Assembly (NCBI GenBank): GCA_916610825.1
Contig: OU744446.1
Span: 30,022,445-30,086,444, forward strand
Source of the DNA: Haliclystus octoradiatus
Lineage: Eukaryota; Cnidaria; Staurozoa; Stauromedusae; Haliclystidae
DNA length: 64,000 bases
Direction of reading: 5' to 3'
Shown here one piece after another: positions 366 to 64,000 of this stretch. The notes under the pieces are model-generated. The model saw nothing but the letters and a program-made list of their open reading frames with translations, had not been told where the DNA came from and did not search any database. Made by a program: the position numbers and the translations under genes. Within the stretch, counting starts at the first letter, position 1. Each line of letters opens with the position of its first letter.

Positions 366-16544
<16,179 letters not shown>

Positions 16545-42997: not shown

Positions 42998-43397
42998 GAT
43001 TTCTTGTGATTGGCTGATGTCTGCTGCTATTATAACTATTTTATCATTGATTTCAAGCTAATTGAATTTAAATCAACATTGAACAGTTTTTTTCTTTAAT
43101 TACTAAATTCAAGTATCACCTTTTAAAAATTATATACCAGTCATAATTTGGCTTAATTATTTCATTGAAACATTCTTATAAATTAAACCATTGATTAGAA
43201 TTATCATTATTACGAAATTACCATATATAATTTACTATAAATAGGCCGGGATTGTCCTTATACGGCATCTGTCTAATCACATCAAACTACACTTACAAAT
43301 TGGTGTGTCATATGCACATATTAATGTTAGATAATTGTATAGGGGATACTAAGCGATAATCTATAATTGCTAGTTGCTTAATGTTGGAACTTAGAAT

Positions 43398-43781
43398 GTG
43401 TCTTCTCTGTTTACTACCTATTCGTTTTCACTATCTGATGTTCATGTGTCTTCTCTGTTTACTACCCATTCGTTTTCACTATCTGATGTTCATGTGTCTT
43501 CTCTGTTTACTACCCATTCGTTTTCACTATCTGATGTTCATGTGTCTTCTCTGTTTACTACCCATTCGTTTTCACTATCTGATGTTCATGTGTCTTCTCT
43601 GTTTACTACCCATTCGTTTTCACTATCTGATGTTCATGTGTCTTCTCTGTTTACTACCCATTCGTTTTCACTATCTGATGTTCATGTGTCTTCTCTGTTT
43701 ACTACCCATTCGTTTTCACTATCTGATGTTCATGTGTCTTCTCTGTTTACTACCTATTCATTTTCACTATCTGATGTTCGT
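43398..43781. repeat. 48-bp minisatellite, 8 copies
   Basis: Unit begins GTGTCTTCTCTGTTTACTAC and is 48 bp (16 codons), repeated eight times almost without change. Because 48 is divisible by three, two frames stay open for over 140 codons; neither has a recognisable protein feature beyond the repeat. Confidence 0.95.
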
Positions 43782-52148: not shown

Positions 52149-52151
52149 CTA

Positions 52152-52177
52152 CACTCTTAGCAAAAAGGGTACCGAAG
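52152..52177 (+). repeat. Left terminal inverted repeat of the CACTA element
   Basis: Matches the right end in 25 of 26 positions; the mismatch is GGGTACC versus GGGTACT. Confidence 0.93.
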
Positions 52178-53264
52178 CATGTAAAATGGGGGTACTGCTG
52201 CCATATGTACCCTTTTTTTGCGAATTCGGTTCCATTTGTTTTGCTTCTGGTTCCCTTTCAGGAGTAGTCGGCAGAAGCATAATGAAAAGGTGACCAAAAT
52301 TTTATTTCTTTTGTTATATTGGCCAATGGATGAGGACTATTTCAGCCTCTTACTGAATCAGCTTTAAACCCCTAAATTAATGCGGGAAAGTAATTTAGCA
52401 ATGGCGGAATGAAGCCGTTACAGATTTTGGAGATTTTTGATTTCCTTGCAAACTTGTTTGGGTTACTTGCAGAAGATTATTGTGGATTCGAAACAGGTTT
52501 GATCGTTTTAATTTTTGTTTGTTTGTGTTATGTTTTATTGTGCTGGCTTTTTTTTGCAAGCAGACGGTGAGCAGCGTTCGTTTACGAAAGAGGAAGACCA
52601 AGGTCCGTGTTGCTTTGGAGTTTTACACATCTCAAGACAAAACAAAATCAGTTGATAAATGACAATCACTATTTATGCATGCCTACTCACTCAATAACTT
52701 CTCTATTTTTCAACATTGAAATGCTCATTTTACTTGAAAATTAGTTGCCAATCAACAAATACCGTAGGCGTAACTATGATGACTAATGTCTTGCTTCCCC
52801 ACGTCACGAAGGATACACCCTAACCACTACTAGGTTTGTTGACTTGACTACTGTCATAATATTGCATTGATATTCCTTTTTTGGCTTGCAGTTAAAACGA
52901 CACCTTGTTCAACAATTTATGTTGCTATGTAAACATCTATAACTACCTCTTTTATTGACGTCAAAACATATCTATATAACCTGCACTTTTTTAGAAATTC
53001 AATCACACTCCTTTGGATCATTGAGCTAGACCTGTTCCTGTTCATTGCTCTGTTACTCCTTAGTCTTTACACTCTTAAAATTCAATACATTGTTGAGTGA
53101 GTAGAGTGCATACATAGTGTTTTTTCATGCAACTGGCTGGCATCGTCTTTGTCAGTGGTTAACATCCAAGGGTTTGCTCAAGAATAATAAGAAGAAAAGT
53201 CGCTGATCAATTCAATTCAAATCGGTGAGAATATTGTTCATGGAATTTATTAATTTCGTTGTAG
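52178..53264. other. CACTA left subterminal region and transposase leader
   Basis: Contains GTACC-type subterminal motifs to about 52265. A small basic frame ends at 52662 (VRLRKRKTKVRVALEF), preceded by an acceptor-like TTTTTTTTGCAAG; it may be a short leader exon or nothing. A TTTCGTTGTAG acceptor just before 53265 suggests that the transposase mRNA has a spliced 5' UTR. Confidence 0.5.
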
Positions 53265-53274
53265 ATCTACCATA

Positions 53275-55854
53275 ATGTCACTAACTTGCAATAGCTTTGT
53301 ATGTACATTATGTGGTCATTCAGAAGACACATTTTCTAAACTTCTAAGGCATATTTCTGTGTCACACAACAATTTGAGTGATAGGAATATTGCATGTGGA
53401 ATTGACTACTGTAATAAAACTTTTCAAACTGTCAATGCATTTAGACAGCATGGCTATAGAAGTCATACTAACGCTGTTAAAAAAGGTCCACAACTTATAA
53501 ATTCTCCTCTAGCAACGATCAGCAGTAGTCCTACCACAGAGTATGATAAGGATGATGCCCTACTGTATGATGATAGTGAATATCAACCCATTATTTCAAA
53601 TTCCTCATTAAGGCCTTTGGATGAAAATCCTTCAGTTTCTTTCCTTCCGGAAAGTTCTGATACTCTTACAAACAATCCTTCAAGTCAAATTAACTCTTTT
53701 CAAAACACATTTTGCCAACTTGTTAGCAAATTATTTGTAAATGCGCGTGAGAAAAATCTGCTACCGGATTCAACATCTAAAAGACTTTTTGATAACTTCC
53801 GACTGATGTTTGATTTATATCACAATGAATTAATGTCTCTATGGCAGCTTTCTTTAAGTGACCATGGTCTTCCTATTAATCAAGATTATTCTGAATTGTT
53901 TAACACAGAAGAATTTATTTCTTCCATTTTTAATAATATTTCAACACCCTCAAATGTCCAGCGCTATATCAAAGAGAATATGCCTTACGTCCCACCATTT
54001 TCCAAGTTAGTAACTGATACCAGTGGGAACACATGTAAATTACAGTATGTATCTGTACGCTCTATTTTAGAATTAGTTTTGAGTATTGATAGCATATTTT
54101 CCGAAGCAAACAATTACTTGCATAATTTTCAATGCTCAGATCAATACTTTTGTGATTTTTTTGATGGTGAAGAATTTGCCAAACGGACAAGTCATGCTGG
54201 AGATTGCATTGTTCTTCCTCTTGTATTTTATACGGATGAGTTTGAGGTTTGTAATCCGATTGGCAGTAGTAAGGGTAAATGCAAGCTTGCTGCTGTCTAT
54301 TTCCAGTTAGGATTCCTTCCACCTCACTTACGCCATCAACGTTGTCTTACTTTTCTGTCTTGTCTATGTCTTGACAAGGATAGAAAATTATTAGGTTATA
54401 GTACAATTTTAGAATGTCTATTGCAAGAAATGTGTGAATTCTCATCAAAACCTATAATTGTTGAGAATACAAAATTTCTACCTAGGTTTTTTTTTCTCAG
54501 TAGTGATAACCTTAGTGCTCATGGTCTTGGAGGTTTCCAAGGCTCTTTTAGTTCAGGCAAAGTATGTCGCTTTTGCATGATTTCTTACGCTGATATCTCT
54601 ACTATCAAATATTTCAACACTGATAAACTCAAGTTGAGGAACACTGCAAAACATAATTTACATATAATGAAATCAAAAGGAGTAGAAAATATGTGTGCTA
54701 TCACTGGAGTTGTTTCTTCCTCTTGTTTATTGCAGTTAGGTACATCTGACCCGACTTTTGATATTCTGAAATCTCTTCCTCCTGATATCATGCATGATTT
54801 TTTGGAAGGAGTTGTACCCATTGTTGTATCAGTAGTTATTGATAATTTTATTAGAAAAAAAGAAACAACAATGGAAATTGTTAATGCAGAGATTATTGCT
54901 TTTTCAAAAATTAGTCATTTTACTGATTTAAACATTTTTAACATTTTATTAACTAGAAAACATATAAAAAATAGGAGATTTCCTGGAACTGCTTCCCAGA
55001 AGTGGTTTTTGATAACATATTTGCCATACATTTTGTGTCCCTTTGTTGGAAATAAAAATAGCATTGCTTGGCGCGCTTTAATAAAATGTAGAGAGTTATC
55101 AGATATTTTACTTTCTCATTCTATTGATAAAGATGCTATTGTATATTTGCGTGTGATAATCCATGAATTGCTTGGCCTTCTAAGAATTCTTTCTCCAGTT
55201 TGCCTCACACCAAAATGTCACTTCATGCTTCACTATCCAACTTTTATAACATTTTATGGCCCACCGCGACTTTTTTGGACGATGCGATTTGAAGGAATGC
55301 ATCAATACTTCAAGCGCATAGCTAGACAAACTCAAAACTTCCGAAATATTGCGCTAACACTAGCTCGTCGTTTCCAAAATAACGTGGCAGCTGCTCTTTC
55401 TGATTTTGAAGTATCATGTGATGTTGAGGTTGGTCCTGGAAAATTAATTCTGCGAACAGATATAAGTCAAAATCTATGTGATGAGATTGTAATCGCACTT
55501 GATTTATCTCTTTTTGACAATTATTCCACTGCTCTTTCTGTTTCTTGGATTAAAATGAAGGGATATAAATACCAGGTTAACTGTACTGTGGTTTGTGGTA
55601 TGTGTGAGGAATGGGATCTTCCAACATTTATGAAAGTTGATCATATTTTCAATATTCATGATGAATGGATACTATGTGGTGTTGCCTACCACACAATAAA
55701 TTTTGATGAGAACTCTTGGTCTTATGTTTGTCAAGAAACTGGAAGGGTAATCGTTGTGTCAATTAATAATTTATATCAAAATAGACCACAAACTATGTAT
55801 ATTAGAGATGGTAAAAGCCATGCCATACTGCCATATCAAATTACAAAATGTTGA
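53275..55854 (+). CDS. TNP2-like CACTA transposase with N-terminal C2H2 fingers, 859 aa
   Basis: Catalyses cut-and-paste movement of the element; acts in the nucleus by binding the ends. Single uninterrupted exon; the ATG at 53275 follows an acceptor-like site and is the first in frame. Residues about 9-33 form a C2H2 finger (CTLCGHSEDTFSKLLRHISVSH) written here by its cysteine and histidine ends; residues 40-66 form a second, looser one (CGIDYC...HGYRSH). About 411-436 reads DNLSAHGLGGF then SSGKVCRFC, about 501-513 PPDIMHDFLEGV, and about 648-690 HFMLHYP, FYGPPRLFWTMRFEGMHQYF and NFRNIAL. These blocks, in this order, are those of the animal TNP2/Transposase_21-type proteins. No stop or frameshift is present, and length is as expected. 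A cellular zinc-finger gene is excluded by the flanking TIRs. Confidence 0.9.
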   Translation: MSLTCNSFVCTLCGHSEDTFSKLLRHISVSHNNLSDRNIACGIDYCNKTFQTVNAFRQHGYRSHTNAVKKGPQLINSPLATISSSPTTEYDKDDALLYDDSEYQPIISNSSLRPLDENPSVSFLPESSDTLTNNPSSQINSFQNTFCQLVSKLFVNAREKNLLPDSTSKRLFDNFRLMFDLYHNELMSLWQLSLSDHGLPINQDYSELFNTEEFISSIFNNISTPSNVQRYIKENMPYVPPFSKLVTDTSGNTCKLQYVSVRSILELVLSIDSIFSEANNYLHNFQCSDQYFCDFFDGEEFAKRTSHAGDCIVLPLVFYTDEFEVCNPIGSSKGKCKLAAVYFQLGFLPPHLRHQRCLTFLSCLCLDKDRKLLGYSTILECLLQEMCEFSSKPIIVENTKFLPRFFFLSSDNLSAHGLGGFQGSFSSGKVCRFCMISYADISTIKYFNTDKLKLRNTAKHNLHIMKSKGVENMCAITGVVSSSCLLQLGTSDPTFDILKSLPPDIMHDFLEGVVPIVVSVVIDNFIRKKETTMEIVNAEIIAFSKISHFTDLNIFNILLTRKHIKNRRFPGTASQKWFLITYLPYILCPFVGNKNSIAWRALIKCRELSDILLSHSIDKDAIVYLRVIIHELLGLLRILSPVCLTPKCHFMLHYPTFITFYGPPRLFWTMRFEGMHQYFKRIARQTQNFRNIALTLARRFQNNVAAALSDFEVSCDVEVGPGKLILRTDISQNLCDEIVIALDLSLFDNYSTALSVSWIKMKGYKYQVNCTVVCGMCEEWDLPTFMKVDHIFNIHDEWILCGVAYHTINFDENSWSYVCQETGRVIVVSINNLYQNRPQTMYIRDGKSHAILPYQITKC

Positions 55855-57236
55855 CGTTTCAAATAGTCATTTTTTTCTGTTTGCCAATCAATGATGACAA
55901 AAAACAAATGTTGAATAACTATAAATTTAAATATAGACTAATAAATATAGGTGATTGGTCACACTAGCAATATTGCTGTTTATAAATAGACAGTAGTAGC
56001 AGACGTAAATACATGAGTAAGAAGAAACGATTCTTAGTAAAAATTAACACACTTATTCTATTTTACTGTTGTTTCTAGTTAGTTAAGTAGGAGCCTATAC
56101 TGTACAATTGCATATTTGTCATGCATTGCAAATCAGAAGCTTGATGTAATGTTATAAAGTTTTATAATCATTAATCATATAGGCTACATTGACTGTTTTG
56201 ACTTTTCCATGCTTTGTTAATTAAATGTTCATCAAAGTAGACCACAAACATGTATCTTGGAGATGGTCAATGGTAGGCCTATGTCCTATACTACCACACC
56301 TAATTCCAATTTTACAAAATATTTTGACGTTTTGAGTAATAGCATTTTCTGTAGGCCTAATCATTAATGACAATAATGAATGTTGAATAACTTGGAACAT
56401 TTTAATAATATTATAATTAATAAAATATTCACTTAAGAATGGCACAAGAAAATGTGTTGAAACGTTGTGAGAAATTAGTTGTGTAAATATTCTGTGTTAA
56501 ATTTTAATAGAGACTAACAATTATAAGTGCTTGACACTAGCAATATTTCTGTTTATAAATAGACAGTAATAGCAGACGTAAATTTGAGTAAGAAGGAACG
56601 ATTCTTATTAAAAATAAACACACTCTGACTGTCAATACACAATCGCCAAACAGTGAATCTAATTTTTATATAAATAACTGTATCTCTTAGAAAGCAAATA
56701 TCTTTAAATAACAATGCTTTTTACATCTCCTTCATGGTTGAATTTTATTTTACTGTTGTTTCTAGCTAGTAGTTAAGTAGGAGCCTATACTGTACAATTA
56801 CATATTTGTCATGCATTGCAAATCAGAATGTAATGTTATAAAGTTTTATAATCATTAATCATATACATTGACTGTTTTGACTGTTCCATGCTTTGTTAAT
56901 TAAATGTTCATCAAAGTAGACCACAAACATGTATCTTGGAGATGGTCAATGGTAGGCCTATGTCCTATACTACCACACCTAATTCCAATTTTACAAAATA
57001 TTTTGATGGTTTGAGTAATAGCATTTTCTGTGGGCCAATCATTAATGACAATAATGAATGTTGAATAACTTGAACATTTCAAGAGAGACTAAGAATTTTA
57101 AGTGCTTGACACTTAGCAATATTGCAGTTGATGTATAGACAATAATAGCAGACGTAAATATGAGTAAGAAAAAACCATTCATAGTAAAAATACACACACT
57201 TTGACTGTCAATACACAATCAACAGACAGTGGACAT
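55775..57236. repeat. Triplicated transposase 3' end
   Basis: The end of the transposase frame and its 3' flank (from AGACCACAAAC, 55783) recur at 56239 and 56918, each followed by the same downstream sequence (TGTTGAATAACT, TTGACTGTTTTGAC and others). Copies 2 and 3 are more alike to each other than to copy 1 and no longer code. Spacings are about 456 and 679 bp; copy 2 carries extra sequence. Confidence 0.85.
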
Positions 57237-57309
57237 TATTTAATAATATTTTAATGTAATATAAATTCGAAATATAGTTTCTATTGATGATGTATTCTTC
57301 TTTTCAGCC

Positions 57310-60300
57310 ATGCCTCTTCATAAAAGAATTCCTGTCTGGCGCCTTCGAAATCCTGATTTAAGAAAATTTGCACAGACTAGTAGCTATGGCTCCTTTTTAG
57401 ATGATGGTAAGATAGATGTCAATGGGTTGACATTTACTAGTTTGTTCATAGCTGGTTATGTTTACAATTTCTTATTATCCTGACCTCAATATCTGTATAT
57501 TATCGGTATTGTAGGCTCCACTTTTTATCAAGAGATTGTATTTTAAGTCTAAAATTCTTAACATGAGACTTATGTGGAGTAGACACCATATCAGAATTAA
57601 GAAAACGATATCCTTATCTGTAGGCAGGTGCTCTATATACACAGTATTTATTCAGTAGAATGCTGTTTCTTGTATATTTTAATATGCTATGTAGAAGTGA
57701 CTGCTATACAACATATTGTACTGAACTGTATTGTCAATACAGGTCTATGCGTGATGTATTCTATGGTCTAACTTGCTGCTAATATTTCACATAATTGAAA
57801 ACTGTAGGATACTTGTTTTACTGAATTTAATGGTAGACTATTTAAACATTGATATTTTGAAGTTATCAACAAATTTAATCTGGATTGCGCCCCTACTGAT
57901 CTGAAGTTGTTCACTACTGGCGTCAAACCTACTGAAATAGAAGAAGAGGATTTTGATGATATGATGGATGTTGTAGATGAGATGATATTCAAATGCACTG
58001 ATGACGACTCTCCTAGCAATTCACAACAGTAAGTATTAATGGCTGTTATTGATTGATAGAGGACTTAGAGGCCTAGGCCTACTACTGTGCATCATGTCTT
58101 TGTGCCTACTGTGCATCATCATGCCTACGGCTGTCATTAATGCTGGTCCAAGCGCTCATCTAACTTATTTGTTGCTATTCACAGACAAGCAAGGGAGTTA
58201 TCACCCCCTCAAGTTCAAGGAGAAGTTAGTGAAGATTCCCTTTTGAATGCCAGTAACCAACTACCAAGGTAGATTGCCAATATTCTCCTTGAACATGTCT
58301 ACATGTCAAATACATGTTGCAATTCCTTCACCGTTTTAGTTCAATTACTCTCACTTTCAGATCAATATCCACTCCTGTAATTGTTGCCAGTGTACAGGAA
58401 CCATCATCTGATCCGAATTCATCAGATGAACCGATCCAACAGAGGTGCCCCGTTTATCATTATTTACAATAATAATTAATCACAAATTTGATAGCTATTC
58501 GTTTCACTGACTTTCAAGTTTGTCTGATCTTATTTATTTGATCAATGTAGATTTCCACTTGTTTACAAGTTACCTGTGTTCCAAGAAGAAGTGATCCAAG
58601 CACTGTCATCAAAGTCACCTCTGATTAAACTCGACCACGGTGTAACTGGTAGCATCATCAAACGCTTGAGAGATGATATAATTAGACTCCGTTGTGGGGA
58701 TCCGTAAGTAGGATTTTTACTTCTGCAATATCATGTATTTATATAATTTTGCAGCGCAACTTCATTTCCTTTGTTCTACAGGAAACCTACTGCAAATCAG
58801 TACAAGCAAGTTTGCCATGCACTAATCAGAAAGTACCCATTCCTTGCAGATGATTCTTCTTCTGGGAACGGAATGTAAGTATTATACCTGTAGTCTTTTC
58901 TGTTTGTAGAAAGTAGTTCTAAGAAATGGGTAGAAGAAGGCACATTATGTTTTATTGAGATTTTATCAAAAAAGACTTTATTGGCTGCATAACCCCTTTG
59001 AAAATGTTCATCAGTTCATGAGTGTGAATTTTCAAATTTTCATTCAATATTTCAATGAACAGTTCAGGAAAGTTCATGAAGAATTCAGACATTGTTCATG
59101 AACTGTGCATGAACTGTTCATAAACGTTCATCAACCGCTCAATTAGCTAATCATAATGTTCAATAGGTTCTTGTTTCTTCTTTGAACTGTTCTCTGTCTT
59201 CTGTTATAGAACTTTGTTTAGGGAGAAGCTGAAGAGATGTTTTAAAACATACAGAACAAATAACCCGTCTCCAGAATTAGAAGAACAGAAAGAAAAGTAT
59301 GGCAAGTCCTCAGTTGGTCTTAAGAGACCTGCATCGAAACTGGCTCTTTCATCTAAACCAGTAAAGTGTGCTGTCATCCAGGTAATTTATACAATCAAAT
59401 ATTTTCATTCTGAAGCAAGCTGAACTTTGACAATAACCTGATAATATCTTTATGTTGTTCCTATAGGTAGAAACAACAGAGCCTATCCCTGAAGAAGATA
59501 CTCATGACGTAACATTTAGGATGGAGCATGAAACGTCTAAACAGCTTCCTGACAAATTTTTTATTTTCAAAATTCTTAAAGACTGCAGATCGTTGAGGGC
59601 AAAGAGGGTTGCAGATCCCGACATTGACTTGGTTACTGAATTCAAGTTTTGGCCTTCTTTGAGAATTAAAGAAGTGGTAAGTATAGTAGGACAGCTATTT
59701 TTAACTATCCTAAGGCTCATATGGACTGCAGTGTTTGAGATTTTACCATGACTATTACATATTTACTGATTTGTTTCACAGGTATACATGGAAGGTATTG
59801 AAGTGATGAGAGCTGTCATTCAAAGTCATGAGCTTGAAGAAGCGGTGAACTGCCTTATGACTTCTGTTGCTGTCCATTTGCAGTCAAAGCTTGCCAGATA
59901 TGTGCAATACAATGAACTCGCTGTGAGATACAAATCAGGTTCGTTTATAGGAAACGTTAATCATTTAAACTTTCTAACTTCGTTATCACCGAATTTTTTG
60001 ATAATGTCAATCTCTATTTAACAGAACCTCTCCTCCTTGCCTATGTGTCATTGGCCATTTACTTCAGGGAACAGAAGGAGCACTTGATGTGCCTCGAGGA
60101 AGATTTCAATGTATCCACTGTAAGTTTTTATTGGATTCAATTTTTGATTATTATGGGATTGTCAAATAGGTAAATATGTTTCTTCATTGCAAACATTAAA
60201 ACCAAAACAGTTTTTTCCTTTCACCAAACTGTGATTTTAAATATTCTCCTATTAGCCATATATGCTATACATTGCTTGTCTATTGATGATGTATAATTAT

Positions 60301-60820
60301 AAGACTTGCAGTTTATGATGTTAACTCAAAGCTTTTATGTATTGCTATAGATAACTGATCTCATATAATTAATGAAGTTAACTTTTTAACAATATGAGAT
60401 TATCCTTATGATTGAATATAGGTAGGATCTGAAAAATCCTATCCAATCATATGTAGCATGTCAGCATTTACAACTTGACCACAGCAGTGCAGTATAAGGA
60501 ACCATGAAGACATAGTATTCCTCATTTTGAAATTGATTTTTATTGTTTTCTTTTAGGAAATGATATCCCGGCAACTCATTATACAACTTAATGTGGACAA
60601 GACATATTCACTACTACTAAACCATGAGGAGTTATTCTCTGGTATTCAAACAGCAGCTTCTGCAATAGCATTGCATCTTTGTATACCTTACATTTTAAAC
60701 GTGAAATATGGCTGTCCAAAGGCAACTGGAATGCTCCAAAGATATATTGGGGTAAAAACTCATTACAAGCCAGTATCGAGGTTGATGTCTCAGCTCAACT
60801 TGAAACAATTTGCTTCTTGA
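57310..60820 (+). CDS. CACTA second protein (SAMD3-like family), 524 aa, 11 exons
   Basis: Coding exons: 57310-57406, 57863-58028, 58185-58268, 58361-58444, 58551-58703, 58782-58874, 59210-59381, 59467-59676, 59782-59938, 60025-60119, 60557-60820. Phases join exactly, giving 524 residues plus a stop with no lesion. N-terminus (MPLHKRIPVWRLRNPDL) is followed by an acidic, Ser-rich region. The core, about 145-265, has FPLVYKLPVFQEEVIQAL, NQYKQVCHALIRKYPFL and FREKLKRCFKTYR, the pattern of proteins annotated in fish and cnidarians as sterile alpha motif domain-containing 3-like. C-terminal 250 residues are helical and conserved-looking (LPDKFFIFKI, DIDLVTEFKFWPSLRIKEV). In plant En/Spm a second product binds subterminal repeats and helps the transposase; the same role here is inference. 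A TTTTCAG acceptor at 57301-57307 suggests an upstream non-coding exon or cotranscription. Confidence 0.85.
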
Positions 60821-61457
60821 TTACTCATTGTGATTTGTGGAAATCAAGTTCTCACGTCCACAATGTAAGGTATACAAAGTTGTGAAGCTGTTATACCAGC
60901 TGTTCTTTGTATGGAATTGCATCTACTTTAACTACTTTTACCAATTCACTATATGGAACTTTAGTATCACTATATGGAACGTTAGTATCCTATATTATCG
61001 TATTTTTCCTCAGAATTATTCTGTTTTACCTACATACTCTACAACACTTATGAATAGGTTTAGAGTAAGAGTGTTCAGGTATGTTATTTCATAAGAACAC
61101 AGATTCAAAGCATGACATTTATAACGAATAATAACGAATTATGTCAAGTAATCAATAGTAAATTTACTTTTTAGTTTGTAACACATATCTTAAAAAGGCA
61201 ACTCAATTCTTTTGCAGGATTTGTCATTATGTAATGTTCAAGCAATAATATAATGTAATAATGTAATCAATACTCTGTAGATTAACATTTCATGATTTAT
61301 TCATTATATAACTCAACTTATTTAGATTTTCTATGATTCTCTTATCTTTTCTCAATGCTATTTCCCTGCCCTATCAACTGTCTCACGTGACTCTGACTGC
61401 TTGAGGCTAACAAATTCTCAATACGGAACCTATATAGAGCTAAACAGCACCTGTACC

Positions 61458-61565
61458 TTTTTTGGTACCTTTCGGCAAAGGTACCGAATTCGGTACCCCC
61501 TGAAAAAAAAGGGAACCTATATAGTCACAAACCAGCGGTACCCTTTTTGGTACCTTTTTTGACAA
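61458..61565. repeat. Subterminal GGTACC repeats of the CACTA right end
   Basis: Five GGTACC palindromes within about 100 bp, including the larger palindrome GGTACCGAATTCGGTACC. Subterminal repeats in CACTA elements are transposase-accessory binding sites. The left end has only one GGTACC plus several GTACC/GGTTCC relatives. Confidence 0.7.
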
Positions 61566-61591
61566 CTTCAGTACCCTTTTTGCTAAGAGTG
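61566..61591 (-). repeat. Right terminal inverted repeat of the CACTA element
   Basis: Inverse of 52152-52177 with one mismatch, ending GCTAAGAGTG. Confidence 0.93.
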
Positions 61592-61672
61592 TAGTGACGT
61601 TGAAACTTGAATACTAATTTTGAGAAAAATCAATGTGATGCGTATGAGATTACGACAGTTTCGTTCTTTCAG

Positions 61673-62446: not shown

Positions 62447-62514
62447 AAAATCAGGCATATCGCTACGATATGATTTAATTTTAGTTTTACTAATTTTATT
62501 TTCATTTTCTTCAG

Positions 62515-64000
62515 ATTTTAACCGCTCGCGGCAGGCTCTACGGCATGCAATCTGAGAAAAATTCCCTCTGTTGCTTTTAAAAAACTCTAAATTTCACAAA
62601 AATCACAATAAGAGGTAAATAATATTCATATCCATTAGTAGGATTGATTTTCAATGTAATATTTACGAAGTATGATATATATTGAATTGTATTAATTTTA
62701 TTCTCATTTTCTTCAGATTTTAACCGCTCGCGGCAGGCTCTACGGCATGTCATCTGAGAAAAATTCCCTCTGTTCCTTTGAATCAACTCTAAATTGAACA
62801 AATTTTACAATAAGAGGTAAATAATATTCATATACATTACTTGGATTGATTTTGAATGTAATACGGCATGTCATCTGAGAAAAATTCCCTCTGTTCCTTT
62901 GAATCAACTCTAAATTGAACAAATTTCACAATAAGAGGTAAATAATATTCATATCCATTACTTGGATTGATTTTGAATGTAATATTTACGAAGTATGATT
63001 TCTATTGAATTTTACTAATTTTATTCTCATTTTCTTCAGATTTTAACCGCTCGCGGCAGGCTCTACGGCATGTCATCTGAGAAAAATTCCCTCTGTTCCT
63101 TTGAATCAACTCTAAATTGAACAAATTTCACAATAAGAGGTAAATAATATTCATATCCATTACTTGGATTGATTTTGAATGTAATATTTACGAAGTATGA
63201 TTTCTATTGAATTTTACTAATTTTATTCTCATTTTCTTCAGATTTTAACCGCTCGCGGCAGGCTCTACGGCATGTCATCTGAGAAAAATTCCCTCTGTTC
63301 CTTTGAATCAACTCTAAATTGAACAAGTTTCACAATAAGAGGTAAATAATATTCATATCCATTACTTGGATTGATTTTGAATGTAATATTTACGAAGTAT
63401 GATTTCTATTGAATTTTACTAATTTTATTCTCATTTTCTTCAGATTTTAACCGCTCGCGGCAGGCTCTACGGCATGTCATCTGAGAAAAATTCCCTCTGT
63501 TCCTTTGAATCAACTCTAAATTGAACAAATTTCACAATAAGAGGTAAATAATATTCATATCCATTACTTGGATTGATTTTCAATGTAATATTTACGAAGT
63601 ATGATCTCTATTGAATTTTACTAATTTTATTCTCATTTTCTTCAGATTTTAACCATTCGCGGCAGGCTCTACGGCATGTCATCTGAGAAAATTCCCTCTG
63701 TTCCTTTGAATCATCTCTAAATTGAACAAATTTTACAATAAGAGGTAAACAATATTCATATACATTACTTGGATTGATTTTCAATGTAATATTTACGAAG
63801 TATGATTTCTATTGAATTTTACTAATTTTATTCTCATTTTCTTCAGATTTTAACCGCTCGCGGCAGGCTCTACAGCATGTGATCTGAGAGAAGTTCCCTC
63901 TGTTGCTTTGAATCAACTCTAAATTGAACAAATTTTACAATAAGAGGTAAATAATATTCATATACATTACTTGGATTTATTTTGAATGTAATAATTACGA
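62515..64000. repeat. 202-bp tandem array with exon-like borders, runs off the window
   Basis: Units start at 62515, 62717, 63040, 63242, 63444, 63646 and 63847; a shortened unit lies near 62863. Each full unit starts just after TTTTCTTCAG, holds about 100 nt beginning ATTTTAACCGCTCGCGGCAG, ends at AAGAG|GTAAAT, and has an AT-rich remainder. The preceding 62313-62514 is a diverged relative. In the frame entered in phase 1 each unit has an early stop, so it is at most a terminal exon. Confidence 0.9.

Follow-up and report, generated by a model that had tools for sequence, protein, structure and literature searches.

A recently mobile TA-inserting transposon, placed in the CACTA-Mirage-Chapaev clade by its catalytic signature, and its conserved second gene in Haliclystus octoradiatus

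Is the 9,440-bp segment at 52152..61591 (plus strand) of the DNA analyzed here a complete transposon that moved recently, and what is the second gene that it carries beside its transposase? The segment lies in a 64,000-nucleotide stretch of the Haliclystus octoradiatus genome (33 contigs, 261.9 Mb), C1:30022445-30086444, which we call the window; coordinates without a contig name are window positions. We interpret the segment as a cut-and-paste DNA transposon that belongs to the CACTA-Mirage-Chapaev (CMC) clade, inserts at TA, is autonomous and has moved recently, with a second gene (gene 2) that encodes an accessory factor, and we give this interpretation as a whole a probability of roughly 0.87. 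Judged from sequence comparison, the identity of the segment as a transposon and its mobility appear nearly certain; that gene 2 acts as an accessory transposition factor we put at even odds.

The limits of the element are set by terminal inverted repeats (TIRs) and by identical ends in the copies on C11, C5 and C7. The 5' TIR (26 bp, 52152..52177, plus strand, beginning CACTCTTAGC) and the 3' TIR (26 bp, 61566..61591, minus strand) differ at one position, and an inverted-repeat search paired arms at 52149-52177 and 61566-61594 with 97% complementarity, the flanking TA lying inside the arms. The terminal 22-mer, allowing up to three mismatches, was found twice in the window (0.00 expected from 100 shuffles) and 12 times in the genome (262 Mb), where the reversed control pattern was found zero times; shuffles and reversed pattern together rule out TIRs arising by chance and bear out the matching CACT-ended repeats described by the first-pass annotation of this locus. 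The TA target-site duplication (left copy 52150..52151, right copy 61592..61593, established by comparison of full-length copies) flanks all four full-length copies as well as a sister element on C7, described below. Motifs of the type GGTAC/GTACC occur beneath the 5' end (52168..52211) and in a cluster beneath the 3' end (61453..61575), a candidate protein-binding array. When each GGTACC is scored as two motif starts, the outermost 250 bp at the two ends together contain 16 of the 19 starts in the element (4 on the left, 12 on the right); 5,000 shuffles of the termini gave 0.73 on average and never more than 9.

The first-pass annotation had proposed a search for further copies, the absence of which would have counted against it; the search returned three more full-length copies, so that four are present on different chromosomes (C1, the window copy; C11; C5; and C7). 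The C11 copy differs from the window copy by 6 substitutions over 9,440 bp with no insertions or deletions (99.94% identity), the C5 copy by 25 substitutions and two length changes inside gene 2 (53 bp deleted, 5 bp inserted), and the C7 copy by 168 substitutions and 14 insertions or deletions, among them insertions of 1,154 bp in the transposase (window-equivalent 55130) and 390 bp at window-equivalent 61482. (To the eye, the 390-bp insertion contains a tRNA-like stretch and looks like a short interspersed nuclear element.) Only the C7 copy has a broken transposase frame, the other three being open; gene 2 is interrupted in two copies, by a stop at codon 257 (C5) or codon 92 (C7), and stays open in the window and C11 copies. 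Both genes are thus open in only two of the four full-length copies, and between these two the transposases are identical and the gene 2 products differ by one residue (F315L).

The flanks of the different copies (500 bp per side, E 1e-3) have no sequence in common, and we therefore regard the copies as separate insertions; segmental duplication as their source is ruled out by the same comparison. The C11 copy sits within a tandem satellite, and its flanks joined by a single TA match the monomer two units off at 200 of 200 positions; all ten monomers spanning the site in the retrieved flanks (1,065 + 1,000 bp) are unoccupied. The C5 target is the edge of a dispersed repeat, and 36 of the 38 other matches listed (78-84% identity; best 40 of 108 candidates scored) cross the junction unoccupied; this evidence is weaker because the left side spans just about 11-24 bases. 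The copies are real insertions with TA duplication. With the TA duplicated at 4/4 copies, the 99.94%-identical pair and the perfect empty site on C11, the activity that the first-pass annotation had entertained gains substance, and recent mobility of the element appears close to proven.

Older material is also present. C4 carries an older or partial copy with main pieces at about 90-95% identity. At C8:11824925-11826819 there is a deletion derivative (93% identity) that lacks the transposase and gene 2 exons 1-4; it joins a 151-bp piece of the left end to gene 2 sequence that starts at element position 6416, and its right end was not found within the retrieved stretch. Related ends at C4:28897499 and C4:33434744 retain the GGTACC subterminal motif with a diverged TIR, and on this sequence comparison they are assigned to another subfamily.

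To what kind of transposon do these ends belong? The transposase gene (53275..55854, plus strand), delimited from the open reading frame list, Pfam and comparison with the sister, is a single uninterrupted frame of 859 residues, exactly as had been claimed for it. It contains D321, D411, C431-x2-C434, H649-x3-H653 and E673, all of them invariant in an alignment with the sister transposase (43% identity over the alignment); from motif position, D321, D411 and E673 would be the catalytic residues. We assign the element to the CMC clade because of this D-D-C(2)C-H(3)H-E signature: C(2)C and H(3)H lie between the second D and the E of a DDE triad, the interval in which the rule given for the CMC/CMCT group places a C(2)C motif and an H(3-4)H motif (PMC12730594). 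The termini are likewise of the 5'-CA..TG-3' kind with a 2-5 bp duplication (CACTC..GAGTG and TA, in 4/4 copies and the sister).

The label 'CACTA transposon' given to the element by the first-pass annotation therefore holds at the level of the clade and fails for the classical CACTA/EnSpm superfamily, which is ruled out because the ends are CACTC rather than CACTA, the duplication is a 2-bp TA (in agreement with the C11 empty site) where the superfamily has 3 bp, and no Transposase_21 domain is detectable. With E values up to 10 admitted, Pfam found no Transposase_21 in the transposase of the element or that of its sister (the latter having no Pfam matches at all), and none of the 36 Transposase_21 matches genome-wide overlaps any of the 62 matches of the element's transposase family. 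The spacings from first to second D and from second D to C are 90 and 20 here, close to the 92 and 18-19 of three Transposase_21 frames of the genome, but six pairwise alignments to those frames mostly scored no better than shuffled sequence: 2 of 300 shuffles equaled one of them, and between 19 and 293 of 300 equaled each of the remaining five. A shallow profile comparison was negative. Pfam, locus overlap, profile and shuffle-controlled alignments thus rule out a Transposase_21/TRC assignment, and the terminus is CACTC where TRC elements have CCC. The 36 Transposase_21 (TRC/CACTA-type) frames and fragments belong to a different lineage within this genome. The transposase had no match among Protein Data Bank (PDB) sequences, and scans of viral and prokaryote contigs found nothing related to it. 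Open frames of 727-775 aa occur in more distantly related transposase families (28% identity), some of them multicopy (C2:37422979, C10:819820, C10:6558498, C2:35979382 and C6:12554221), and these are possibly further mobile CMC families.

By described features rather than by a tree, the TA-targeting CNEST and ESTA elements look closest, TA duplication being given for both and the CAC terminus for CNEST. CNEST of Cryptococcus neoformans, a proposed new superfamily of the CMC supergroup whose clade holds unclassified animal transposases, has a TA duplication, CAC-ended TIRs (33 bp, CACGG), a CMC catalytic core, a length of several kb and few full-length copies; it differs in being fungal and about 7.2 kb long with a single annotated gene of about 4.4 kb, and the passages covered do not mention a second gene (PMC12810828). 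ESTA, an EnSpm-like element of rust fungi in the CMCT clade, has the TA duplication and both motifs, C(2)C as well as H(3-4)H; it is fungal, and its extra gene encodes a TET/JBP dioxygenase, whereas the 524-aa product of gene 2 is unmatched in Pfam (PMC12730594). The TRC elements SmTRC1 of Schistosoma (PMC1636069) and Spongebob of Hydra (PMC4298943) are, like our element, animal distant relatives of CACTA with a 2-bp duplication; unlike it they have CCC termini, SmTRC1 carries Transposase_21, and the passages covered describe no counterpart of gene 2. A further similarity is that SmTRC1 produces several spliced transcripts, from which other proteins are made (PMC1636069). Maize En/Spm has CAC termini, large size and a transposase together with a second open frame that supports excision (PMC4158355).

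What, then, is gene 2? It is a predicted gene model, built by hand from splice motifs, of 11 exons from 57310 to 60820 (plus strand) with ten introns, all GT-AG, and a 524-aa product without internal stop, in keeping with the lesion-free spliced gene first proposed. The sister element, in the region C7:10902300-10913500 (10.90-10.91 Mb), offers the informative comparison. It is a second complete two-gene element, 9,496 bp long with CACTCTTAAAA ends (both elements having ends of the CACTCTTA type) and TA on both sides; its transposase frame is stop-free and 41% identical to that of the window, and its subterminal motif is of the GTGTAAATGC type, unlike the GGTACC of the window element. Nine gene 2 exons of the window (1, 2 and 5-11) have collinear counterparts in the sister, in the same order and orientation and intact as traced. 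Among the eight compared in detail (1 and 5-11), six are equal in length, namely exon 1 (57310..57406; 97 nt), exon 5 (58551..58703; 153 nt), exon 6 (58782..58874; 93 nt), exon 9 (59782..59938; 157 nt), exon 10 (60025..60119; 95 nt) and exon 11, which includes the stop (60557..60820; 264 nt). Exon 7 (59210..59381; 172 nt, sister 169 nt) and exon 8 (59467..59676; 210 nt, sister 219 nt) differ by 3 and 9 nt, and the seven introns that follow exon 1 and exons 5-10 agree in phase. Exon 2 (57863..58028) is 166 nt, with 148 nt in the sister; exons 3 (58185..58268) and 4 (58361..58444) come from the splice-motif model, their sister counterparts not being identified. The two proteins share 122 of 379 aligned residues from exon 5 onward.

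Relatives of exon 11 occur at six distant loci genome-wide. Four of these (C7:10.90, C7:17.75, C10:8.96 and C6:8.96 Mb) lie 4-11 kb downstream of a related transposase on the same strand. The other two, C1:6116418-6116684 and C4:21641323-21641589, have no related transposase among the matches listed (best 53 of 73 candidates scored), and may be solitary or domesticated copies.

The gene 2 product matched nothing in Pfam at E up to 10, the SAM domain included, and nothing among PDB sequences; its C-terminal part may resemble SAMD3 and fish proteins, but the SAMD3-like label is unproven. The sister's N-terminus matches Pfam CIDE-N at 23.5 bits (E 5.9e-5; 81-aa fragment), just at the cut-off of 23.5; a 73-aa fragment scores 23.2 bits and exon 2 alone 18.4 bits. 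The same N-terminus had no match in PDB, the window protein does not match CIDE-N, and the two N-termini are 28% identical. Elsewhere in the genome there are two clear CIDE-N matches. An AG, a possible splice acceptor, lies closely 5' of both window start codons and of the sister gene 2 start, and the two genes may use a shared leader through alternative splicing. Among the matches listed from the open-licence literature (titles and abstract openings), no SAMD3-like or CIDE-N gene was found inside such a transposon.

In maize En/Spm, the two proteins are TnpA and TnpD, the ends carry subterminal repeat arrays as those of our element do, and TnpA binds the subterminal repeats and brings the ends together. 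The gene 2 protein appears to behave as a core component because its place and intron phases are kept in a sister whose transposase is only 41% identical; two genes that stay together in order and phase while the transposases diverge to this extent and the terminal arrays change are what would be expected of a transposase and an end-binding partner. Since the sister matches CIDE-N at the cut-off, we propose, at about even odds, an oligomerizing, TnpA-like accessory protein. The transposase would bind the element ends, with two weak C2H2-like fingers at its N-terminus (sub-threshold in Pfam) as candidates for this contact, cut them and join them at TA; the gene 2 protein would associate with itself, bind the element's own subterminal GGTACC array and, in the manner of TnpA, bring the ends together.

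Several observations weigh against the interpretation as a whole. The C7 copy is damaged in both genes and the C5 copy in gene 2, and the latter persists with its broken gene, whether the lesion came before or after insertion. The pair with both genes open shows no transposase replacement and one in gene 2 (F315L), the window and C5 transposases differ by four replacements, and between the window and C7 copies the nonsynonymous and synonymous divergences (dN and dS) are 0.0176 and 0.0162 for gene 2 and 0.0124 and 0.0263 for the transposase; gene 2 in this pair thus shows no sign of purifying selection, though C7 is a dead copy. The check for empty sites that the first-pass annotation recommended, successful on C11, failed at the window copy's own target, where none of the 48 further matches listed spans the junction (best 40 of 262 candidates scored). 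Nothing in the gene 2 sequence points to DNA binding, the sister transposase start lacks the close upstream splice acceptor of the other three starts, and the single-sequence structure prediction for the transposase is poor (mean predicted local distance difference test score 34.7). Could the copies then be relics, their mobility over or owed to another CMC element of the genome acting in trans? Two of the four full-length copies are damaged, and the genome has further related transposase families whose frames are open; the window and C11 copies, with 6 differences in 9,440 positions, identical transposases and gene 2 open in both, make this account very improbable.

The role of gene 2 is more contestable. 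It could be a captured host gene, SAMD3-like or CIDE-N-like, carried passively while the transposase alone suffices, as would fit the open transposase beside a broken gene 2 on C5, the two of six distant terminal exons without a related transposase among the matches listed, and the extra TET/JBP genes that fungal CMC-clade elements carry and that pass between superfamilies (PMC12730594). Against this stand the order, orientation and seven intron phases kept in the sister at 41% transposase identity and the four of six distant loci that adjoin a related transposase; we consider passive carriage unlikely, and the first-pass annotation's description of the gene as cargo finds no support in the same conservation, casual cargo being an unlikely description on the sequence evidence. 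Gene 2 might instead encode a regulator or anti-silencing factor (a repressor, or a means of escape from chromatin or Piwi-interacting RNA silencing) outside the strand-transfer machinery. The fungal TET/JBP proteins have been read as aiding escape from methylation-based silencing (PMC12730594), and the sister's CIDE-N match suggests protein-protein contact, which is compatible with either role; the subterminal motif array argues for some end-binding protein, without showing that gene 2 encodes it, and no observation here argues directly for a silencing role, which we judge rather unlikely. An accessory transposition factor is the role that we favor.

Other repeats lie within and around the element. 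The region between the two genes (55960..57258, plus strand) contains direct repeats of 173 nt (98%), 59 nt (98%) and 145 nt (80%) spaced about 570-690 bp apart. Intron 6 of gene 2 holds, at about 58990-59145, a dispersed repeat with abundant GTTCATGAAC-like palindromes, to which many other places in the genome are similar (about 70-90% identity). Elsewhere in the window are a TAT microsatellite (840-1853; 338 copies, 99% matches), a 101-bp satellite (4852-10081; 52 copies at 98%), a 48-bp repeat (43396-43779; 8 copies) and an array of about 202-bp units (62491-64000) that reaches the window end.

Animal members of the CMC clade have been poorly described so far. In this one, a near-identical complete pair, an exact empty site for one of its members and both genes open make activity directly testable. 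Tentatively, and with more doubt than confidence, we suggest that the element may represent a TA-targeting animal CMC lineage in which the second gene is obligate and encodes an ancient accessory protein; this protein would self-assemble through a CIDE-N-like domain and recognize the subterminal array of each element. On the same suggestion, the SAMD3-like host genes of animals may descend from it. As an animal equivalent of plant TnpA, the conserved gene 2 is a concrete candidate, and animal gene families that resemble it in annotations may be transposon genes.

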